Of a stretch of DNA of 64,000 nt, positions 2,300 through 54,182 are shown piece after piece; the first letter of the stretch is position 1; each line of letters opens with the position of its first letter. Location: the NCBI GenBank assembly GCA_005116835.1, contig SWDM01000018.1, positions 251,485 to 315,484 of the forward strand. The letters are read 5' to 3'. The notes beneath the pieces are model-generated. The model was given only the letters and a program-made list of their open reading frames with translations, did no database searches and was not told the origin of the DNA. The position numbers and the translations under genes were made by a program. The stretch comes from Nitrospira sp. (lineage in GTDB: Bacteria > Nitrospirota > Nitrospiria > Nitrospirales > Nitrospiraceae).

Positions 2300-3556
2300 C
2301 TATCCTTTCGGAATGGAAATGATTGGGGTCTTCACGTTGCTCACGTCTGTAACGGTCATTTGAAAGAGATTGGCCAATACTGCGAAAGCCTCTTGATTCC
2401 AACTAGGAACCATCCCTTCGCTGATCGGAAACTTCCGAACAGAGTAATACTTCCCCTCAAACTCGACGTCGAACTCAGCGTCCTTCAACGGCGATACTGA
2501 TTCTTCGATCTCCAGCACATGCGCCGGATTGCGTTGCACCGGTCCGGTCCGGGGGTCAGGGTCGACATGGTACCCAGTATCTTCTGCAATGCCGCGCGCG
2601 ACAAAGGAGATAATCGAGTTGAAGCTCCGGAGCAAAATAGACCCCTTAAGCGGATACTCCCCTCCGGGGGATCCAGGTCGGATATCGACAAAAACGTGGT
2701 CGGGGGGCAGCCGTTCAATCTCTACATTGAGGCGTTTGCGTTCGTCGTTGCTAAGCCGCTTGAGGTCGTAGTTTGTAATTGCCAATCGGCCTGTCACCCG
2801 CCTGATCAGAATAGCCGGTTGGCCATCCGTGGGAACCGACCATCGATAACCTCGATCGATCGCTGCAACCACCTCCGCAGGGGTCAATCCCTTTTCGAGC
2901 GAGACCGGAAAGGCCTCTTCATACACGACCGGAGCGATGTACAACCGTTTCTGAAAATCCAGCGACGCCAAATGCAAAAGTCTGCGGCGAAACTCTGTGT
3001 AGTCCTCGCGACGCGAAGGGGTATTGAACAGGACCAACGGTGCCTCTTCGCCGTCGATCAGAATCCCCCGGCCGAGCAGTCGGAGCACCATGCTGAGATC
3101 GAATCCCTGCCGGACCAAAAAGTTCAGATGCGACTCGTCGAGGGGCCGCAAGATGCGCTTGGTGAACTCTTCTCCGGACACGGGAACGATTGTGACGGTG
3201 GGATTTTCTGCCACCTCAGTCCCGTAATTCAGATCGACCAGCGAATCGTCCGGTACTACGCCACGAGAAATTCGTCCAAGGACGCCGGCCTTGATGCGAA
3301 AGTCGAACGTCGCTGCGACACTGGTGACGGCTGTAAAGTGGACTGGGCGATAGTGCCTGGCCCTTGCAATGTTCAGAAGGAGGAGCTCTGCCTCAACGCG
3401 ATGAACGGTACGATCATATTCGATGACCGCCCGATGCATGGCAATCGGCGACAGACAGCCGGTGAGGAGGATACAGAGACTGAAGGCGGAAGCTGAACGG
3501 AATAATCGCGAGGGGCTGAACTCCCTCAATATGATTCCCTTCCCCTGATTCCACAT
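2300..3556 (-). CDS. Hypothetical lipoprotein
   Basis: The protein has up to 418 residues. A lipobox-like LLTGC follows a hydrophobic stretch (SAFSLCILLTGC), indicating a lipidated envelope protein. The rest is soluble alpha/beta sequence with no recognised domain. The ATG at 3556 has AAGGG only two bases upstream. A TTG codon ten residues later has AAGGGA at better spacing and gives a more normal signal peptide, so the true start may be there. It is followed two bases later by the thioredoxin-like gene and sits downstream of the molybdoenzyme/cytochrome b pair. A role in that envelope redox cluster is inference from position only. Confidence 0.7.
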   Translation of the reverse strand: MWNQGKGIILREFSPSRLFRSASAFSLCILLTGCLSPIAMHRAVIEYDRTVHRVEAELLLLNIARARHYRPVHFTAVTSVAATFDFRIKAGVLGRISRGVVPDDSLVDLNYGTEVAENPTVTIVPVSGEEFTKRILRPLDESHLNFLVRQGFDLSMVLRLLGRGILIDGEEAPLVLFNTPSRREDYTEFRRRLLHLASLDFQKRLYIAPVVYEEAFPVSLEKGLTPAEVVAAIDRGYRWSVPTDGQPAILIRRVTGRLAITNYDLKRLSNDERKRLNVEIERLPPDHVFVDIRPGSPGGEYPLKGSILLRSFNSIISFVARGIAEDTGYHVDPDPRTGPVQRNPAHVLEIEESVSPLKDAEFDVEFEGKYYSVRKFPISEGMVPSWNQEAFAVLANLFQMTVTDVSNVKTPIISIPKG

Positions 3557-3674
3557 CGCCCTTTATCACCCTTGACCTCAGCCTCAACCTGCTTGCTCGC
3601 AGGTTGCAGAACCACTACATTGCACGAGTGAATCTCTGTGGTCCGACATGCCACACAACAGGAGAACATATTTG

Positions 3675-3845
3675 CAGGCTGCTCAAAAAGTCCGTTCGGC
3701 AAGGCCGCAGCCGATGAAAGCACCGGAGGCGTAGTATTCCTCACCCACCCATCCCGAGCTGCCGCGACAGCTCGTTTCCCAAGTGGGCTACGTTGAGGAT
3801 GCTTTCGAGGTGAGAACGAAGCTGGCGGACTTTTTCAGCAGCCTG
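3675..3845. repeat. Dispersed inverted-end intergenic element, copy 2 (best preserved ends)
   Basis: The left end CAGGCTGCTCAAAAAGTCCG and the right end CGGACTTTTTCAGCAGCCTG match as an inverted repeat at 19 of 20 positions. Internal family words are CAAGGCCGCAGCCGATGAA, CCGGAGGCGTA, GTGGGCTACGTTGAGGATG and GAGAACGAAGCTGGCGGAC. The right boundary touches the stop codon (3846-3848) of the molybdoenzyme gene exactly. There is no coding capacity, so it would be a non-autonomous element or a 3' hairpin. Confidence 0.85.
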
Positions 3846-4622
3846 TTATATCCCCGCGTACCACTCATACCCCTGATCGTCCTCCCAATACCCACCCTTC
3901 CCGCCGGCTATGCCGGAAAGCGTTTCCACCAATTCAATCTTGGTCACATACTTGGCCTGTTTATACCCAAGTTGGCGTTCAAAGCGGAGTCGTATCGGCG
4001 CGCCATGGGGCACGTCGAGAGGCTTACCGTTCAGCTCATAGGCCAAGATCGTTTGAGGGTGATAGCAATCCACAAGCGCTATGCTTTCGTAATAGGATAC
4101 CCCTTCCTCATCCACATCGGCACAATGGAAGACGGCAAACTTGGCATTCGGCAAGGGTGTAGCTTGTCGTAGGAGATCGCCGAGCGGGATGCCGGTCCAC
4201 TTGCCGATGGCACTCCAACCTTCGACACAATCGTGCCTGGTGATTTGCGTCCGGGCCGGCAATTCTTTCAACGCCGCGAGCGACCAACTCATCGGGGTCT
4301 GGACCATGCCGCCGACCACTACCGTCCACTCAGAAAAGTTCTTCGCCACATGCCCGGCATACGCTTCTGTACCTGGATCAGTGTTACCATTTGCCGGAAA
4401 CACCTTCGAGATGTCGGCTTCTCCATATTCCTTGGCAAGGGCATTCGCGGGCGTGATGGCCCGCTGGACTCGGTCAGTCACTTTCTCCGTCTGGCTCAAT
4501 AGCGAAGGGAACCAGCTGCTCTGCGACAGATTGTCGCAACCGGCAAGAGCCACCAGACTTGCGGCGCCCAACGTCCCTTTTAGAAACTGTCTACGTTCCA
4601 TCGCTCGTTCATGCGGAATCAT
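3846..4622 (-). CDS. Tat-exported molybdopterin-dependent oxidoreductase (sulfite oxidase/YedY-like fold)
   Basis: The protein has 258 residues. AGGAGG four bases before the ATG fixes the start. ERRQFLKG (residues 9-16) is a Tat motif, and LVALAGC (C29) is a lipobox, so it is probably a Tat-exported lipoprotein. The family signature is RHDCVEGWSAIGKWTG, with C132 as the expected molybdenum ligand, followed by GAPIRLRFERQLGYKQAKY. It belongs with small sulfite-oxidase-fold enzymes such as MsrP/YedY, but RHDCVEGW resembles the cytochrome b-linked branch rather than E. coli MsrP. The cytochrome b gene lies immediately upstream, separated only by a repeat element. The substrate is not shown by sequence; methionine sulfoxide repair is a hypothesis based on the Met-rich neighbour. 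Confidence 0.85.
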   Translation of the reverse strand: MIPHERAMERRQFLKGTLGAASLVALAGCDNLSQSSWFPSLLSQTEKVTDRVQRAITPANALAKEYGEADISKVFPANGNTDPGTEAYAGHVAKNFSEWTVVVGGMVQTPMSWSLAALKELPARTQITRHDCVEGWSAIGKWTGIPLGDLLRQATPLPNAKFAVFHCADVDEEGVSYYESIALVDCYHPQTILAYELNGKPLDVPHGAPIRLRFERQLGYKQAKYVTKIELVETLSGIAGGKGGYWEDDQGYEWYAGI

Positions 4623-4680
4623 GGTGCCTCCTCAATGTGTCAGCGTGATGCCAAAGCAAATGCCAAATGCCTTTCCCGCA

Positions 4681-4807
4681 GCATTATGTTCAAAGGAGCT
4701 GTCCAGCAAGGCCGCAGGTGAATCGAAACCGGAGGCGTACCCTCGGGGGTACGTTGAGGATTTCGATGAGCCGAGAACGACGCTGGCGGCTTCTTTCAAC
4801 ATCATGC
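4681..4807. repeat. Dispersed inverted-end intergenic element, copy 3, inside an operon
   Basis: The left arm (GCATTATGTTCAAAGGAG) pairs imperfectly with the right arm (GGCTTCTTTCAACATCATGC). The core carries CCAGCAAGGCCGCAGG, CCGGAGGCGTACCCTCGGGG, TACGTTGAGGATTTCGATGA and GAGAACGACGCTGGCGG. The right arm overlaps the stop codon of the cytochrome b gene (4802-4804), so the element supplies the end of that gene. It separates two genes expected to be cotranscribed. Confidence 0.85.
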
Positions 4808-5761
4808 CTCATGCTTGATGACAAACCATCCGGTCACCATCGAACGGATGTTGTTGAAGAATCCGGTCAGAATCACTTCCACCACATGAATCACAATGAA
4901 CCCCACGAAGGTAAAACAGGCGATAAAGTGAATCGTCCGCGCCGCCTGCCTGCCACCAAAGAGTGTAAGCAACCAGGGAAATGCCGTATCGATCGTTGGC
5001 GACATCGTGAGGCCCGTCAAGACAATCAGTGGCGCCACCACACCCAGAATCACGACATAGGCCAGTTTCTGCAGCACGTTATACCGCTTGGCCTCCTCAC
5101 CCTTGGGATGCCGGAGAACCAAGTGATCTTTGACCGCCTTCCCAATGCCACGCAGATCCTTGCCGGTCGGAGCCAGGTCACGCGTGGCATGCCGGCTGAT
5201 CAGCGCATAGGCTGTGAAGAATAGTCCGTTGATGACGAGGAGCCACGCAAAGAACAGGTGCCACTGCCGACCCATCGCCAGAACTTTGGCGCTCGGAATG
5301 GTGGCCCAAGCAGGGAAGGCTCGACGCTTGCCGTCCGAATAGCCGAGCACTCCAGTGGTGTCGAACTTATAGCCCAGAATAGTCGTAATACCCCGCATCT
5401 CGCCGCTCTCGGTCTTCACGGGACGGATCGAGAGGAATGGGTGCTCACGATCGGAACGATCGTCCCAATAGAGAGCGGGATGCGCGTTGAAAATTTGGAG
5501 TCCGCTCATGATCAGGATAATCAGGATAGGCACGTTGAGCCAATGGCTGATTCGGACTGGTAATCGATGGCGGTAGACCCTCTCGACCACCGGGACCGGA
5601 ACAGGTCGTGCGGCTAGGACGTCACCCTGGCTCCCTGTGAGGCCATTGGGAACCGAGGGTTCTTCGAGTGGAAACGGTTCAGACCGCATGGCGAGTTCTG
5701 AAACCTGCTCGTTCTCCTGGCCTTGACCAGTCCCAGTTCCTTCGTGAATGAGTGGGGCCAT
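4802..5761 (-). CDS. Membrane cytochrome b (b561-type / Ni-Fe hydrogenase cyt b-like)
   Basis: The protein has 319 residues; GAGGAG before the ATG supports the start. A polar N-terminus of about 60 residues precedes RLPVRISHWLNVPILIILIM, typical of the first helix of diheme b561-type cytochromes. Further helices contain RQWHLFFAWLLVINGLFF, LAYVVILGVVAPLIVLTGL and RTIHFIACFTFVGFIVIHV, giving the conserved histidines for two b haems. It would move electrons from the quinol pool to the exported molybdoenzyme encoded next, replacing the MsrQ/YedZ type of partner. The last codons and stop lie in a repeat element. Confidence 0.85.
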   Translation of the reverse strand: MAPLIHEGTGTGQGQENEQVSELAMRSEPFPLEEPSVPNGLTGSQGDVLAARPVPVPVVERVYRHRLPVRISHWLNVPILIILIMSGLQIFNAHPALYWDDRSDREHPFLSIRPVKTESGEMRGITTILGYKFDTTGVLGYSDGKRRAFPAWATIPSAKVLAMGRQWHLFFAWLLVINGLFFTAYALISRHATRDLAPTGKDLRGIGKAVKDHLVLRHPKGEEAKRYNVLQKLAYVVILGVVAPLIVLTGLTMSPTIDTAFPWLLTLFGGRQAARTIHFIACFTFVGFIVIHVVEVILTGFFNNIRSMVTGWFVIKHEA

Positions 5762-5916
5762 GATCCTGTCTCCTCTGGCTTGGGGTGACCTGTCTGCTGG
5801 TTGGTCGGAGCCCGGCCTCGAATCTTACAGGCTGTTGCAGGAGCAGAGACAGGACGGCCTGCGGTCGGTGTTACCGAGCGCAGGCCGTGAGGGTCGAAGA
5901 CAGGAAGATCAGATGC

Positions 5917-6228
5917 CTACTTCCCCATGGCTCCCTTCATCTCACCTTTCATCTCGTCCTTCATGCCCTTCATTTCACCCTTCATCTCGTCCTTCATGCC
6001 CTTCATCTTGCCCTTCATCTCCCCTTTCATGTCACCCTTCATGTCACCCTTCATGTCACCCTTCATCTCGCCTTTCATCTCGTCCTTCATGCCCTTCATT
6101 TCACCCTTCATCTCGTCCTTCATGCCCTTCATTTCACCCTTCATACCCCCCATATCCTCAGCGAATGAAAGGGAGCTGAAACCGACCATACACATGACCG
6201 CGATGACTGACAACATGATCTTCTTCAT
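5917..6228 (-). CDS. Exported methionine-rich MKGE/MKDE repeat protein (MrpX-like)
   Basis: The protein has 103 residues; AGGAGG six bases upstream of the ATG at 6228 sets the start. Residues 1-23 are a signal peptide ending SLSFA. The mature part, about 80 residues, consists almost wholly of MKGE, MKG, MKDE and MKGD units: 21 methionines plus lysine and acidic residues, and no aromatic residues or cysteines. It resembles the annotated pentapeptide MXKDX repeat family, to which the periplasmic Met-rich peptide MrpX of hypochlorite-scavenging systems belongs. That peptide is oxidised and then re-reduced by a YedY-type molybdoenzyme. A molybdoenzyme and cytochrome b follow directly here. Metal binding by methionines is an alternative role. 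Confidence 0.8.
   Translation of the reverse strand: MKKIMLSVIAVMCMVGFSSLSFAEDMGGMKGEMKGMKDEMKGEMKGMKDEMKGEMKGDMKGDMKGDMKGEMKGKMKGMKDEMKGEMKGMKDEMKGEMKGAMGK
5926..6150 (-). repeat. Coding minisatellite within the Met-rich gene
   Basis: Near-identical blocks built from CTTCAT words recur: units around TCGTCCTTCATGCCCTTCAT alternate with CACCCTTCATCTC, and a run of three ATGTCACCCTTC units follows. Blocks stay in frame, so slippage would change repeat number without breaking the gene. Strains are expected to differ in length. Confidence 0.8.
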
Positions 6229-6308
6229 CGAAAACCTCCTGGTGAATGGTAAAAGAACAGACGCAGGGTCCAATACTCTGCGCCCACTGAAAAACGATGT
6301 CAACCACG

Positions 6309-6773
6309 TCACTGATGCACCTTCGTGAGCCTCTTGACATCCGGCCAGTTTGCATTTGCCTTGCTGATATAGCCGGGGATATCCGTCTGCCATTTGGAGC
6401 GGATCGCTTCGCTATAGTTCAGATACAGCTTGTCATCTACCACGGTAAAGGCAGCGGGATCGATAACAGCCTTGTACCCCTTCGCCATGCCAAAGGCGCA
6501 ATAGCCTCCGTACTGTGGGGCATAATTGTCCGGACTGGCTATAAATCTGTCGCGATTGGCCGCGGTAGAAAAATAAAAGGTCGAGCCCTGGTATTCTGCC
6601 TGAAATTCGGGCAGGCCCTTCACTGGTTTCATCTCCGTGAAGTAGGCAATCGGATCATAGCCAAGAATCGCCACTCCCTCTGTCTCAAAATACTCGCCGG
6701 CAAATGCTGGGACGACGCTCGCGAACAACAAGACAAGAACAGCCAGCACAGTATATTGAACATTCCGGATCAT
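6309..6773 (-). CDS. Exported YHS-domain protein
   Basis: The protein has 154 residues from ATG 6773, preceded by GAGGTGG; a codon 21 bases upstream is possible but not needed. The signal peptide ends near VVPAFA. The YHS domain follows: EGVAILGYDPIAYF, then YQGSTFYFSTAANRDRF and DNYAPQYGGYCAFGMAKG. YHS domains are linked to copper and other heavy metals and often occur as small periplasmic proteins. It is the first of six same-strand genes (YHS, Met-rich, cytochrome b, molybdoenzyme, lipoprotein, thioredoxin). Its gap to the Met-rich gene is only about 80 bases. The ligand is not known. Confidence 0.85.
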   Translation of the reverse strand: MIRNVQYTVLAVLVLLFASVVPAFAGEYFETEGVAILGYDPIAYFTEMKPVKGLPEFQAEYQGSTFYFSTAANRDRFIASPDNYAPQYGGYCAFGMAKGYKAVIDPAAFTVVDDKLYLNYSEAIRSKWQTDIPGYISKANANWPDVKRLTKVHQ

Positions 6774-6884: not shown

Positions 6885-7991
6885 CTACTCGTATGCGACA
6901 TTCACAAACACCTTAATCGCCCCTCGTTCCGTCGTGAGCGTCTGCATCATGTCCTGATAATTCTCCAGCCCTGTCACCGGATGCGTCAACAACTTTGGCA
7001 GCCAGCCTGGGAATTCCAGTTCGGCCCGCGCGAAATCGTAGACACCGGCCTCGAAGTATTCGCGATTGGCATTGACGGTCCCCACAACCAGTTTGTTTCC
7101 GAGCACGAAGTCCAGATTGATTTTGTCCGCCGGAACGGAATGCTCACGGTCGCCTCCTGTCACGCTCGCCAAGATCAGCACACCGTTCTTGCCGAGGCAT
7201 TCCATAGCCTCGAACGCCACGGGCGAGTAGCCGGTCGCTTCAAACATGAGATCGAATGGGCCAAAGCGTTTCGCGGCTTCTCGGATCGACAGATCGTTCG
7301 TCGAGATGTACCGCACGCCCAATTCCTCCAGAAGATCGAGATTGCGCGACGGCCTGCTCTCTTTCCCAAAACTGGTGACGTCGAAACCTTTCATCTTGAG
7401 CGAGAGGGCCGCAAGCAATCCCACAGTTCCCGCCCCCAGCACTGCCGCTTTCTTGGGTCGCCAAACCTTAAACCGTCGCTGCGCTTCGTATGCCTGGATG
7501 ATGCCTTTCTCGATAATGGACGTCGGCTCCAACAACACCGCGACGTCTTTGAGTCCTTTCGGAATCTTGACAAGATATTCCGGGTCATCGACGAACAACT
7601 CGGTCAAATAGCCGTGGCGAAGATTGATCCCCCGCTCGTAATAGGTGTCCTCACTGGTCATATCGTACTGGCCGATCTGGTCGTAGAAACTGCCGCCTGG
7701 GCGGCGTACGGTCGGCACGACATACTCGCCCGGCACGAATTCCGTGACGTTGACGCCAACTTCCAAGACCCGGCCAAAACACTCATGCCCGATCACGAGG
7801 AAGTCATAGCCGGGAGGGGCCTGGCCATATTCAGCGGCGTTGATTTCTTTATCCGTGCCATCGACACCGACCCGCAACACTTGCACCAACACACCTCGGC
7901 CATTGGGAATTTCGTGGACCGAGGGCTTGGGTAGTTCAGCGAGATGGATTGAGTCGGGTTTCCCCGGGAGCACAGCAATCGCTATCATCAT
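6885..7991 (-). CDS. Glucose 1-dehydrogenase-like zinc-type alcohol dehydrogenase (MDR)
   Basis: The protein has 368 residues from ATG 7991; GAGGAG five bases upstream favours this over an earlier in-frame start. An N-terminal GroES-like fold holds [12 protein letters not shown] and [15 protein letters not shown] Rossmann domain carries [13 protein letters not shown]. The order and the [10 protein letters not shown] and [13 protein letters not shown] segments match the glucose 1-dehydrogenase branch found in archaea and some bacteria, which oxidises D-glucose to gluconolactone with NAD(P). Gluconolactonase-type proteins are encoded elsewhere in the window, so sugar oxidation is plausible. Exact sugar specificity cannot be read from sequence. 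An inverted heptamer array starts at the stop codon. Confidence 0.8.
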
Positions 7992-8184
7992 TAATTCTCC
8001 TCTTTTCATTCACCGACCTGAATGAAGACTGTGGCAGCTAAGTTGCTCTTCGTTACTCGTTGTTTTTTTGCTGCTATCACATATGTCGCCCAAGTTCTCC
8101 CGACCTTACATGCAATTCTTCTGACCTATCCGATAGGGCACGCCATCCCCCCCCACTGCCACAGTGAGCCTACCCCTTCTCCCC

Positions 8185-10009: not shown

Positions 10010-10282
10010 TTACAGTGAGGATGAATGACAACAGGCGAAATGTTGCCGCAAGCGTAGGCGATTGATGGGAGAGGGATATTGCTTTGGGAGGCCTGCTGCA
10101 GCTTCACACACCAACGCCATCTGCTTCATGTAGGTTCGGCAATCAGCACAGGAAGCAAGATGAAAGCCGACACGGACTTTGGTCAGCATCGGCAGGCAGT
10201 CATCGAGATATTCAGAGGCGAGGCCCGCAACATTGCAGCAGATCGGTCCACTCTGAATCCATGATGACAGATGATCGTTCAT
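10010..10282 (-). CDS. Small zinc-finger (zf-HC2) anti-sigma-like protein
   Basis: The protein has 90 residues; GGAGG precedes the ATG at 10282. The motif HLASCADCRTYM (H-x3-C-x2-C) in an otherwise helical protein matches the zinc-binding anti-sigma (ZAS/zf-HC2) fold that holds ECF sigma factors. There is no membrane segment, so it would act in the cytoplasm, possibly as a redox-sensitive switch given the extra cysteines (PICCNVAG, FACCHSS). It is the last gene of a set with an ECF sigma factor and STAS protein. Pairing with that sigma factor is inference from neighbourhood. Confidence 0.7.
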   Translation of the reverse strand: MNDHLSSWIQSGPICCNVAGLASEYLDDCLPMLTKVRVGFHLASCADCRTYMKQMALVCEAAAGLPKQYPSPINRLRLRQHFACCHSSSL

Positions 10283-10469: not shown

Positions 10470-10772
10470 CTAGCCTGGTAATTTTGCCGCAAGGACATCA
10501 ACCTTCTCGATGGACGGCGGTTTAGCCAACAACTCACCGGCCTTTGCCATAAGCGCCGCAGCAACCTGGCCCGAAAGATGAGCCTGACGGCCTGCCTCAT
10601 CCTGGAAGGCGTCAAAGATGCCGAAAGTGGACGGCCCCAAGCGGATTCCGAACCACGCCGTAGTGGCCGGCTCTGCCTGCACGAGTGGAAGGCCAGCCAA
10701 GAGAAAATTCTCTACCTCTTTCTCTTTCCCGGGCTTTGCTTCCAGACGAACGAACAACGCTACCTTGACCAT
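10470..10772 (-). CDS. ABM-domain (antibiotic biosynthesis monooxygenase / YgiN-like) protein
   Basis: The protein has 100 residues and is a single ABM dimeric alpha-beta barrel. It opens MVKVALFVRLEAKPGKEKEV, followed by WFGIRLGPSTFGIFDAFQDEAGRQAHLSG, the usual pattern of putative quinol monooxygenases. The ATG follows GGGAGG at about eight bases. Family members act on quinols or reactive small molecules without cofactors. It sits 35 bases after the ECF sigma gene on the same strand, so it is probably cotranscribed and may be part of a stress response. Substrate unknown. Confidence 0.8.
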   Translation of the reverse strand: MVKVALFVRLEAKPGKEKEVENFLLAGLPLVQAEPATTAWFGIRLGPSTFGIFDAFQDEAGRQAHLSGQVAAALMAKAGELLAKPPSIEKVDVLAAKLPG

Positions 10773-10807: not shown

Positions 10808-11524
10808 CTATGCACCACCTAGGGCGGTTTCCACGGCCGTCCGCACCCGCTCCCGAGCCCGATGGAGCCGTACATAGAGATTGGTCTCCGTAATCTTCAG
10901 TAATTCGCAGACTTCCTTGGCATCTACTCCTTCGACATCGCGCAGAATGAGGACTTCTTTCAACGTCATCGGCAGGGCATCGATCGCTCGCTGCATCGCA
11001 TTGACCGCTTGCTGGCTGGCAAGCAGCTTCTCCGGTGTCTGGTCGTCCCAGGGCTGAGGGGGAAAGGCCCAGTGCCCGGCCCACTCGCCTGTCTGCTGGA
11101 AGCGGGACGGATCGATAGCTTCATCGTTGTCGTCATCGTAGGACTCGAAGGCCGAAAACGTCGTATGGCGCTTCTCGCGGACGCCACGATCCTTGGCCTT
11201 GTGGATCAGAATCCCGCAGATCCAGGTACGAAGGGACGAGCGGCCTTCGAACCGATTGAGACTTTCGATCACCGCCATCCAGGTGTCCTGCACGACCTCC
11301 TCACCCACTTCGCGATCGGCCACATAGCCCATGGCCATTCGGATGAGTGCGCTGTGGTGTTGATTGACCAGTTCATCGAAGGCCCCCTCGTCACCGCGCT
11401 TGAGCCTCGCGAGGAGCGCTTCCTCGCCCTTCCCAAGACCTGACGCAGTGACAGGCTGCGACCTCTGGCTGATCGTTGGGCTGTGACCCATAGATTCCGT
11501 ATAGGTGGTGATATTTGCGTTCAT
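10808..11524 (-). CDS. ECF-type RNA polymerase sigma factor
   Basis: The protein has 238 residues. Region 2 lies around residues 45-115 (FDELVNQHHSALIRMAMGYV, then EEVVQDTWMAVIES and RTWICGILIHKAKD). Region 4 lies around 170-230 (ALPMTLKEVLILRDVEGVDA, then VCELLKITETNLYVRLHRAR). A linker of about 55 residues between them (FESYDDDNDEAIDPSRFQQ) is typical of RpoE-like sigma factors with an insert. Its ATG overlaps the stop of the STAS gene (ATGA), indicating translational coupling. The operon is headed by a sigma54-type promoter, so a sigma54 input appears to control an ECF output. Confidence 0.92.
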   Translation of the reverse strand: MNANITTYTESMGHSPTISQRSQPVTASGLGKGEEALLARLKRGDEGAFDELVNQHHSALIRMAMGYVADREVGEEVVQDTWMAVIESLNRFEGRSSLRTWICGILIHKAKDRGVREKRHTTFSAFESYDDDNDEAIDPSRFQQTGEWAGHWAFPPQPWDDQTPEKLLASQQAVNAMQRAIDALPMTLKEVLILRDVEGVDAKEVCELLKITETNLYVRLHRARERVRTAVETALGGA

Positions 11525-23452: not shown

Positions 23453-23696
23453 CAGGATACTGAAAAAGTCCGCCCGCTTCGGTCTCGCATCGCTCAGAGA
23501 CGCAACGAGAGTTATTCGGAATTCGGAAGCACTAGAGGTATCCGTTCGTCAACATCCATTCGAGGAGTGAACGGCCCCACGAAGTGCGGTACGTACCTCC
23601 TCGCCTCTTCGCTCTCTGCGGCCTTGCTTGGAACAAGGCGCGTCTCGGCGCGCCAAGGTTGGACGGGTGAAAAGTCTGGCCTTTTTGAGCATCCTG
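23453..23696. repeat. Dispersed inverted-end element, copy 4 (inverted, degenerate)
   Basis: The ends are CAGGATACTGAAAAAGTCCG and CCTTTTTGAGCATCCTG, inverted to each other. The internal GCGGCCTTGCTTGG and CGCGTCTCGGCGCGCC are the inverse of words in copy 5 (GCGCGCCGAGACGC, CCAAGCAAGGCCGC), so this copy is in the opposite orientation. It occupies much of the 720-base gap between the zinc-ribbon and dioxygenase genes, where no convincing gene is found. Confidence 0.7.
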
Positions 23697-34126: not shown

Positions 34127-35041
34127 CTACCGCACCTTCACCACGTAGTAATCAAACGGCGCCGTCACCTCCTTGAACCAATGGGGCATCCCGTTTGGAA
34201 TAATTACCACGTCACCTGGCACGAGCGTTCTCGCCTCACCTCCGGCCACTATCGGCGCGCGGAGTTCGTGCGGGGCAACGATTTTGATGCCGACAGGGGT
34301 GCCGCCGGTGACCAGCTGTGCCGAGCCCTTGAGGACGTATACAATGTCCGTGTCGAGTTCGTGAACTTCGACGACGCCCGCCTTGTCGCGATGGCTGGCA
34401 TGCACCATATAGTTCCTCGCTGCGTGCATCATGTTTTCATCTTCACCAACCAACACCGCGCCCTTTGCAAAGGAAGCCGCCACTTTCTGACTGTCGATGT
34501 AGGTGACAGGAAGCGGCTGATGCCCGTTGGCTATTCCAGCCATCTCCATGTAGTCGAGGGATTTTGCCCCGATAATGGCAAGCTCCTCATCCTGCTGCGC
34601 ACTGGCTGCTCCACTGACACCAACCGCCCCCACAACCTTTCCTTCCCATTCGAGAGGAATGCCGCCCTGCAGCGGAGTAAAGTTCTGAAGATCGCTGCCC
34701 AACGTGACCATCGAAGTACGCCCGCCCTTAATCGCGTCTTCGAACAGTTTGGTCGGCTTCTTGAACAAAGCTGAGGTACGAGCTTTACCGATGGCAATAT
34801 TCGCACTGGCGGCAAAGGTTTGGTCCAGACGCTCCAACGCCAATAGGTTGCCACCGTCATCGACAACGGCGATCGAGCCGCCCGGCGCGTTGACACGTTT
34901 CGCTTCAGTCACTGTTGCGGCAATGACTCTCTTGGCGCCCTCCAGTGTGAGGCCGCGCTTGTCGGATACCGATTCGGCGTAGCTGATGGAAGCCAGCATC
35001 GCGATGACCACGCCTGTGACAACTGCTGTGATGTGCTTCAT
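34127..35041 (-). CDS. Exported GlcG/HbpS-cupin fusion protein
   Basis: The protein has 304 residues; the signal peptide ends ISYAES. Residues about 28-170 are a GlcG/HbpS (DUF336) domain: GLTLEGAKRVIAATVTEA, GGSIAVVDDGGNLLALERLD, FTPLQGGIPLEWEGKVVGAV and GVSGAASAQQDEELA. Residues about 190-304 are a cupin: EVHELDTDIVYVLKGSAQLV and PGDVVIIPNGMPHWFKEV. HbpS-type domains bind haem or cobalamin-like ligands; cupins bind metals or small acids. The fusion is unusual and implies a combined sensor or enzyme. Its neighbour at 35147 is a stand-alone GlcG domain. Confidence 0.85.
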   Translation of the reverse strand: MKHITAVVTGVVIAMLASISYAESVSDKRGLTLEGAKRVIAATVTEAKRVNAPGGSIAVVDDGGNLLALERLDQTFAASANIAIGKARTSALFKKPTKLFEDAIKGGRTSMVTLGSDLQNFTPLQGGIPLEWEGKVVGAVGVSGAASAQQDEELAIIGAKSLDYMEMAGIANGHQPLPVTYIDSQKVAASFAKGAVLVGEDENMMHAARNYMVHASHRDKAGVVEVHELDTDIVYVLKGSAQLVTGGTPVGIKIVAPHELRAPIVAGGEARTLVPGDVVIIPNGMPHWFKEVTAPFDYYVVKVR

Positions 35042-38734: not shown

Positions 38735-39028
38735 TTACTTCTTGGCAGTTTCTGCCATCTTCCCGTTCAACCAGACCGTTTGGCCTTCCTGTAACTGCAT
38801 CTCTTTCCCGTCCTTGGTCACCATCTTGCCGTTCATCATGACCCGGGCACCGTTCATCATCGTCGTCTCGCGATCCATCCGACCAATTTCCTTCCCGTCC
38901 TGCAGGCGCCACATCTTGCCTTCCTTCATCGTGACGCCATCCTTCTCCTCGGCCATCGCGGGAACCGCGAGGAACGACAGGGACAAGGCAAGCCCGACAA
39001 CTGCGAGGGTAATGTTTCTATAGTTCAT
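38735..39028 (-). CDS. Exported small protein with DUF6799-like repeats
   Basis: The protein has 97 residues; the signal peptide ends VPAMAEE. The mature part has three short repeats: DGVTMKEGKMWRLQDGKEIG, TTMMNGARVMMNGKMVTKDG and GKEMQLQEGQTVWLNGKM, rich in Met, Lys and Gly. The pattern matches small exported DUF6799-type proteins. The Met content recalls the MKGE protein at 5917. Function unknown. Confidence 0.7.
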   Translation of the reverse strand: MNYRNITLAVVGLALSLSFLAVPAMAEEKDGVTMKEGKMWRLQDGKEIGRMDRETTMMNGARVMMNGKMVTKDGKEMQLQEGQTVWLNGKMAETAKK

Positions 39029-51047: not shown

Positions 51048-51218
51048 GCGGACAGCTCAAAACGAACGCCCTTCTCACCCTCCCGACCCAGGCGCGCCGA
51101 GACGCACCTTCTCCCAAGCAAGGCCGCAGGAGAGAAATAACCGGAGGCGTACCCTCTCGGGTACGTTGAGGATTATTTCGATCCGAGAACGAAGTTGGGG
51201 GTCGTTTTCAGCTGTCCG
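51048..51218. repeat. Dispersed inverted-end element, copy 5 (long subfamily)
   Basis: The left end GCGGACAGCTCAAAACGA pairs with the right end TCGTTTTCAGCTGTCCGC. Interior: CCCTTCTCACCCTCCCGACC, GCGCGCCGAGACGC, CCAAGCAAGGCCGCAGGAGA, CCGGAGGCGTACCCTCTCGG, TACGTTGAGGATTATTTCGA. The right boundary touches the stop codon of the PilZ-like gene (51219-51221). Confidence 0.85.
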
Positions 51219-53990: not shown

Positions 53991-54182
53991 GCAGGACGTT
54001 CAAAACGTTCATCCAGCAAGGCCACAGCGAATGAAGACCGGAGGCGTACCCTCTGGGGCGCACGGTGCGACGAATAAGGAGCACCAAGTCTGTGCGCGCC
54101 GCCGAGTGGTGAGGCGGCCGGGTCCCCGTTGAGGATCTGAACGATGCGAGAACGACGCTGGAGGACTTTTTCAACGTCCTGC
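53991..54182. repeat. Dispersed inverted-end element, copy 6 (with insert)
   Basis: The left end GCAGGACGTTCAAAACGTTC pairs with the right end GGACTTTTTCAACGTCCTGC. Core words CCAGCAAGGCCACAGCGAAT, CCGGAGGCGTACCCTCTGGG and GTTGAGGATCTGAACGATGC flank an internal stretch of about 60 bases (around 54057-54125) absent from other copies. The right end touches the folE stop codon (54183-54185). Confidence 0.85.

Follow-up and report, generated by a model that had tools for sequence, protein, structure and literature searches.

What does a small exported protein, roughly a quarter of whose mature residues are methionine, do directly beside the genes of a cytochrome b and a molybdoenzyme? The question arises from a 64,000-nucleotide stretch of Nitrospira sp. 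(hereafter the window; contig SWDM01000018.1 of assembly GCA_005116835.1, positions 251,485 to 315,484), on the minus strand of which the gene order is an exported YHS-domain protein, the Met-rich protein (named X here), a b561-type cytochrome, an MsrP-like molybdoenzyme, a predicted lipoprotein and a TlpA-like protein. Family searches confirmed on this strand the arrangement proposed by the initial annotation, with the YHS protein before, the cytochrome b and the molybdoenzyme with a twin-arginine translocation (Tat) signal next, and the lipoprotein and TlpA-like protein after them. We consider it likely that these genes make up an operon for scavenging oxidants in the periplasm with a sink that can be regenerated, comparable to the MrpX system known from Azospira suillum and built from other parts.

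Gene X (5917/5920-6228, minus strand) encodes a protein of 103 amino acids made up of a signal peptide ending in SLSFA and a mature part of 80 residues, 21 of them Met (26%), the same count as first reported. Among the 546 open reading frames (ORFs) of at least 40 amino acids in the window, X is the only one with at least ten Met per 50 residues, and the next has nine. Across 38 X proteins, Lys, Met, Gly, Asp, Ala and Glu account for about 86% of the residues, and spacings of 4, 7 and 3 predominate between Met residues. The Met spectrum of X peaks at 98 degrees, which corresponds to three turns per 11 residues, with a power of 8.9 against a maximum of 1.4 in shuffled sequences; if X is helical, this period would place Met on one straight face, as a hendecad stripe. 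An AlphaFold model of X consists of helices; with a mean predicted local distance difference test score of 65, we take it as no more than consistent with the periodicity. X is predicted to be a helix with approximately 20-26% Met in one stripe. Searches of X against Pfam, NCBIfam and PDB gave low-complexity matches only. The MXKDX model TIGR02953, which matches the MXKDX proteins of Rhizobium and Microvirga, showed no match to the window X at E ≤ 1 and was not listed for five Nitrospira relatives scanned. This lack of a match gives no ground for deriving X from MrpX, and its likeness to MrpX would be one of function. Elsewhere in the window, a small exported DUF6799 protein (38738-39028, minus strand) is fairly Met-rich, with nine Met in 50 residues.

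The molybdoenzyme (3846-4622, minus strand; PF00174, RHDCVEGW) carries both a Tat twin arginine and a lipobox Cys (Cys29 in ALAGC), suggesting that it is probably a membrane-anchored Tat lipoprotein and not a free periplasmic enzyme. Cys29 is invariant in an alignment of 26 sequences, and twin arginine and lipobox Cys occur together in 128 of 144 family members under a strict pattern, most of the misses being mis-set starts. By profile, the closest solved structure is YedY/MsrP (1xdq, 2.6e-24; next best 2.8e-15), fold comparison is likewise nearest to YedY/MsrP, and the CVE[AGT]W motif with the Mo-ligand Cys is present. In the tree, the clade of the enzyme is separate from the MsrP clade (support 100/99), and no protein of the host genome exceeds the cut-off of the MsrP equivalog model NF003767. 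The enzyme appears to have an MsrP-like fold while standing outside MsrP proper, and we infer methionine sulfoxide (MetO) as its substrate; the molybdoenzyme/cytochrome b clade may represent a distinct type of MetO reductase. A second PF00174-type relative, 26-29% identical, is encoded 1.4-2.7 kb downstream of the molybdoenzyme at eight Nitrospira loci (L058, L071-L075, L077 and L089) and has no RHxCVE[AGT]W motif.

The cytochrome (4802-5761, minus strand) is of the di-haem type and belongs to PF01292, and His73, His168, His278 and His292 are invariant among 96 homologues; it is the probable electron donor from quinol to the Mo centre. No PF01794 or MsrQ-type protein was found in the host genome, and an MsrQ-type protein from Paracoccus, included in the scan for comparison, was assigned to PF01794. 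The proposal of a non-MsrQ donor holds in that the cytochrome falls in PF01292 and not PF01794, but such a donor is not special to Nitrospira, being shared by Rhizobium, Burkholderia and an E. coli plasmid version.

How firmly X is tied to this enzyme pair was assessed in the genomes of the same family, of which approximately 64 of 175 hold a molybdoenzyme orthologue at ≥58% identity. Fifty-nine neighbourhoods (662 kb in total) were taken, and with the window counted 56 loci were informative. At every locus whose contig extends far enough, the cytochrome gene comes before the molybdoenzyme gene. X is immediately upstream of the cytochrome gene at 37 of the 56 loci, is displaced at one, is present in a weaker version at another and is absent from 17; the outcome that the initial annotation had named as refuting, a Met-rich gene not conserved beside the molybdoenzyme in relatives, was not observed. 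All 32 ORFs with at least ten Met per 50 residues in the neighbourhoods are X. Counting fragments, X accompanies the molybdoenzyme in 42 of the 175 genomes and occurs without it in two (p 5e-20, a value that overstates independence because the species are related). Two genomes (G061 and G095) retain X with fragments or broken frames of the molybdoenzyme, including a stop codon in G095, which suggests joint decay. Weak matches to X at 30-45% in genomes without the molybdoenzyme were set aside as other lysine-rich low-complexity proteins. Further neighbours recur: the YHS gene usually adjoins X in relatives outside the genus of the window, and in many relatives a TlpA-like gene follows the molybdoenzyme gene, at times directly.

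A candidate regulator was found upstream, consisting of an extracytoplasmic function (ECF) sigma factor (10808-11524, minus strand) and a zf-HC2 zinc-finger protein (10010-10282, minus strand), its putative anti-sigma partner. In about 30 relatives an orthologue of the ECF factor stands upstream of the cluster, at 67-89% identity, with one at 53%. Of 68 genomes that have the molybdoenzyme (fragments counted), 46 hold such an orthologue, as do 7 of the 107 that lack the enzyme; these counts are not corrected for phylogeny. In many genomes of genus g16 the pair is directly upstream of the YHS, X, cytochrome and molybdoenzyme genes; elsewhere, the window included, a dehydrogenase gene and others lie between. 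The motif HX3CX2C, carried by the zinc-finger protein of the window and present in 23 of 24 zinc-finger partners, is that of anti-sigma factors that bind zinc, a group in which some members act as sensors of redox stress. No NrsF (PF06532) was detected in the host genome, and the Brucella-type BcrS promoter pattern GTAAC-N14-19-CGAA matched once in the window, off the cluster, with 1.8 matches expected. A small ORF with the look of an ABM-type monooxygenase (10470-10772, minus strand) sits between the ECF and zinc-finger genes and had no match at E 1e-5 in the stretches of relatives searched.

Outside Nitrospira, the association extends to loci with SigF/NrsF, the regulators known from the MrpX system. 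Rhizobium Pop5 and Microvirga carry an ECF sigma factor, NrsF/DUF1109, an MXKDX peptide, a cytochrome b and a molybdoenzyme approximately 55% identical to that of the window, and msrA and msrB lie next to the Microvirga operon. Among 70 named proteobacterial loci, 17 have both a Met-rich peptide and SigF/NrsF, two the regulator only, four the peptide only and 47 neither, so that 17 of the 19 loci with SigF/NrsF, and 4 of the 51 lacking these regulators, have the peptide beside the enzyme pair. In the groundwater genome Nitrospirae NC_groundwater_956 (L118, 1465-7540), a different Met-rich exported protein is grouped with MsrA, a TlpA-like protein, cytochrome b, the molybdoenzyme and a classic MsrP-like protein, and in another groundwater Nitrospirota (L121) MsrB occurs with a different Met-rich protein and the same cytochrome-molybdoenzyme pair. 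The earlier suggestion of the same scavenging logic, with a different cytochrome and an RHDCVEGW-type enzyme, is supported by the conserved neighbourhoods, by the homologous loci with MXKDX and SigF/NrsF and by the links to MsrA, MsrB and MsrP. Some pairs that lack X have a different exported protein. At four loci of Rhizobium and relatives (L132, L133, L153 and L175), another family of Met-rich exported peptides, with CDxxS and C.MHMD-type motifs, is encoded directly downstream of the molybdoenzyme and represents another peptide type on the pair.

The host genome (3.94 Mb, 99.3% complete) encodes the alpha subunit of nitrite oxidoreductase (NXR; match to structure 7b04, 8.6e-174) and a true chlorite dismutase (Cld) distinct from HemQ (L112 versus 3nn1, E 1.3e-85), besides HemQ-like paralogues such as L111, and the nearest named relatives of the molybdoenzyme are from Nitrospirae and Nitrospira metagenome-assembled genomes. 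Taken together, these indicate that the host is very probably a nitrite-oxidising Nitrospira. In the scavenging operon that we propose, periplasmic oxidants, with hypochlorous acid and its chlorine relatives as the likeliest and others possible, would oxidise the Met stripe of X to MetO and so spare other proteins. The cytochrome would draw electrons from the quinol pool and hand them to the membrane-anchored molybdoenzyme, which would restore Met from MetO in X as well as other proteins, while oxidation of the zinc-finger anti-sigma factor may free the ECF factor and turn the operon on. A likely source of oxidant would be NXR itself, reducing chlorate to chlorite, from which hypochlorite may arise as a side product of Cld. 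Chlorine oxidants as the main trigger form the weakest step, because peroxide and peroxynitrite fit as well and a relative in uropathogenic E. coli (UPEC) is tied to peroxide (PMC8550376). The reading in its most specific form is a dedicated MetO cycle under ECF/zinc-finger control against the chlorine oxidants of the host's own NXR and Cld, with a straight Met-stripe helix as the sink, a peptide independent of MXKDX and MrpX, and resetting by a b561-type cytochrome together with a molybdoenzyme held by a lipid anchor; we offer it tentatively, as a possibility with the balance somewhat against it.

Several observations weigh against a scavenging operon. The molybdoenzyme reaches 95 bits with NF003767, below the cut-off of 207. 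The Cld gene lies elsewhere in the host genome, outside the cluster, and at 21 loci the regions before the ECF and YHS genes had no bipartite promoter motif in common. The cytochrome-molybdoenzyme pair occurs without X at the 17 of 56 loci mentioned above, and 49 of the 70 proteobacterial pairs are without a Met-rich neighbour, suggesting that the enzyme has a use beyond X. Two such pairs lacking X (L093 and L109) are near cueR and a heavy-metal P-type ATPase.

This last observation leads to the alternative that survives best, although we regard it as unlikely: X may be a periplasmic Cu(I)/Ag(I) sponge acting through i,i+3 and i,i+4 Met, with the redox pair and the YHS protein serving metal detoxification or the repair of metal-caused oxidation. 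Met spacings of Ctr1-type motifs can bind Cu(I), and spacings of 4 and 3 are common in X; besides the proteobacterial pairs by CueR and P-type ATPases, one related pair adjoins a heavy-metal-type two-component system. However, Cys is almost missing from X and His is scarce (1 Cys and 23 His across the 38 proteins together), the genes of the cluster itself in the window include none for copper, and X-bearing relatives go with SigF/NrsF and Msr genes. Slightly less probable again is that the pair is a general envelope reductase of MetO, or of other S- or N-oxides, with X as a client and not a sink, namely an envelope protein or chaperone of helical apolipoprotein or late-embryogenesis-abundant type in which the Met stripe is the hydrophobic face. 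The hendecad periodicity would suit such a protein, as would weak similarities to apolipoprotein A-IV (E 0.03) and Spy (E 0.38) and the retention of the pair at the loci lacking X. However, a hydrophobic face is normally made of Leu, Ile and Val, whereas in X Val is about 1% of the pooled composition and Leu and Ile are outside the 12 commonest residues, so that Met carries almost the whole face.

We find it improbable that the molybdoenzyme is of the sulfite dehydrogenase type, passing electrons into the quinone pool, with X linked for other reasons. PF00174 is indeed common to SorA, SorT and SoxC, but profile and fold comparisons favour YedY over SorA, the MsrP-like Cys-Val-Glu motif is retained, the cluster has no cytochrome c subunit, and Msr genes occur in related clusters. 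That X is a functionless minisatellite ORF made by slippage, a view already disfavoured, is scarcely credible: its DNA is a tandem array (periods of 12, 24 and 33 bp) with a repeat copy number that varies between species, and long plus-strand ORFs across the array are a mirror image of X, but the signal peptide, a C-terminal MKGAMG(K/Y)-type motif, the Met stripe and the gene position have all been conserved in many species whose proteins are approximately 50-90% identical.

Around this core on the minus strand lie the exported YHS-domain gene (6309-6773/6794; PF04945, NF041384), a conserved Zn-dependent glucose/alcohol-dehydrogenase-like gene between it and the ECF pair (6885-8009), the downstream lipoprotein gene (2300-3556), which has no family match and is kept in part of the family, and the gene of the TlpA/ResA-like exported thioredoxin-fold protein (1761-2297; PF00578). 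The gap between the cytochrome and molybdoenzyme genes is approximately 180 bp in the window, where it holds a dispersed palindromic repeat element (4690-4815), and approximately 4 bp in most relatives. This element belongs to a family of short, dispersed and partly palindromic repeats (226-375, 3640-3860, 4690-4815, 23453-23492, 51117-51212 and 53991-54182), of which the related copy at 3640-3860 occupies the molybdoenzyme-lipoprotein gap. Scans for sigma-70 promoters and terminators performed no better than on shuffled sequences. Separately, the window encodes an exported protein that joins an HbpS-like haem-degrading domain to a cupin-like region (34130-35041, minus strand).

If the scavenging reading is right, it would extend sacrificial-methionine defence, known in perchlorate reducers and certain Proteobacteria, to the principal nitrite oxidisers, which inhabit soils, wastewater and drinking water and are exposed to chlorine disinfectants, and in which the reasons for Cld are still debated. 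The Met stripe also offers a simple structural idea, in which one peptide would be both oxidant sink and enzyme substrate. A literature search for a link between Nitrospira and a Met-rich scavenger yielded no title or abstract that reports such a system. What is new is that the cluster occurs in Nitrospira, that X has a hendecad Met stripe, that an ECF factor with a zinc-finger partner lies upstream, and that the clade is separate from MsrP; relatives have already been published under the name MsrQP or MsrPQ.

Compared by description, the closest functional counterpart is the MrpX-YedY1-YedZ1 system of Azospira suillum under SigF/NrsF (PMC5748585, PMC4623255). At the level of function, the Nitrospira locus likewise has an exported Met-rich peptide gene beside an MsrP-like enzyme and a membrane haem donor, with putative ECF sigma/anti-sigma control and Cld in the organism. 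Unlike Azospira, it has a zinc-finger anti-sigma factor in place of NrsF, PF01292 in place of PF01794 and a hendecad in place of MXKDX, and it adds the YHS and TlpA proteins. The Rhizobium and Microvirga operons (L092 and L096) share the order of X, cytochrome and molybdoenzyme, a cytochrome of the same family and ECF control, and differ in SigF/NrsF, in a peptide that matches TIGR02953 and, in Microvirga, in the accompanying msrA and msrB. In UPEC, c3566 and c3567 contribute to peroxide resistance under the control of OrhK/OrhR (PMC8550376). The locus of E. coli plasmid p666 (L103), with a two-component system, a PF01292 cytochrome, a molybdoenzyme and an MXKDX-like peptide, fits the published description of c3566-c3568, and its features were used for the comparison. 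The cytochrome family and a Met-rich peptide are common to both, and the plasmid enzyme (RHICVEGW, 38% identical) has a lipobox Cys as in the Nitrospira type, whereas the gene order (cytochrome, molybdoenzyme, peptide), the two-component control, a peptide near the MXKDX family and a separate subclade set it apart. In Brucella melitensis, bcrXQP with BcrS/AbcS is induced by hypochlorous acid and protects against it (PMC8315932); by description it also combines a Met-rich peptide of the annotated MXKDX type (BcrX; TIGR02953) with a putative MetO reductase pair, which differs in having been published as MsrQP homologues. E. coli MsrPQ (YedYZ) resembles the locus in having a PF00174 enzyme that is exported by Tat and shares the fold family, together with a membrane b-haem partner, and differs in that MsrQ belongs to PF01794, there is no Met-rich peptide and MsrP falls in the separate clade described above.

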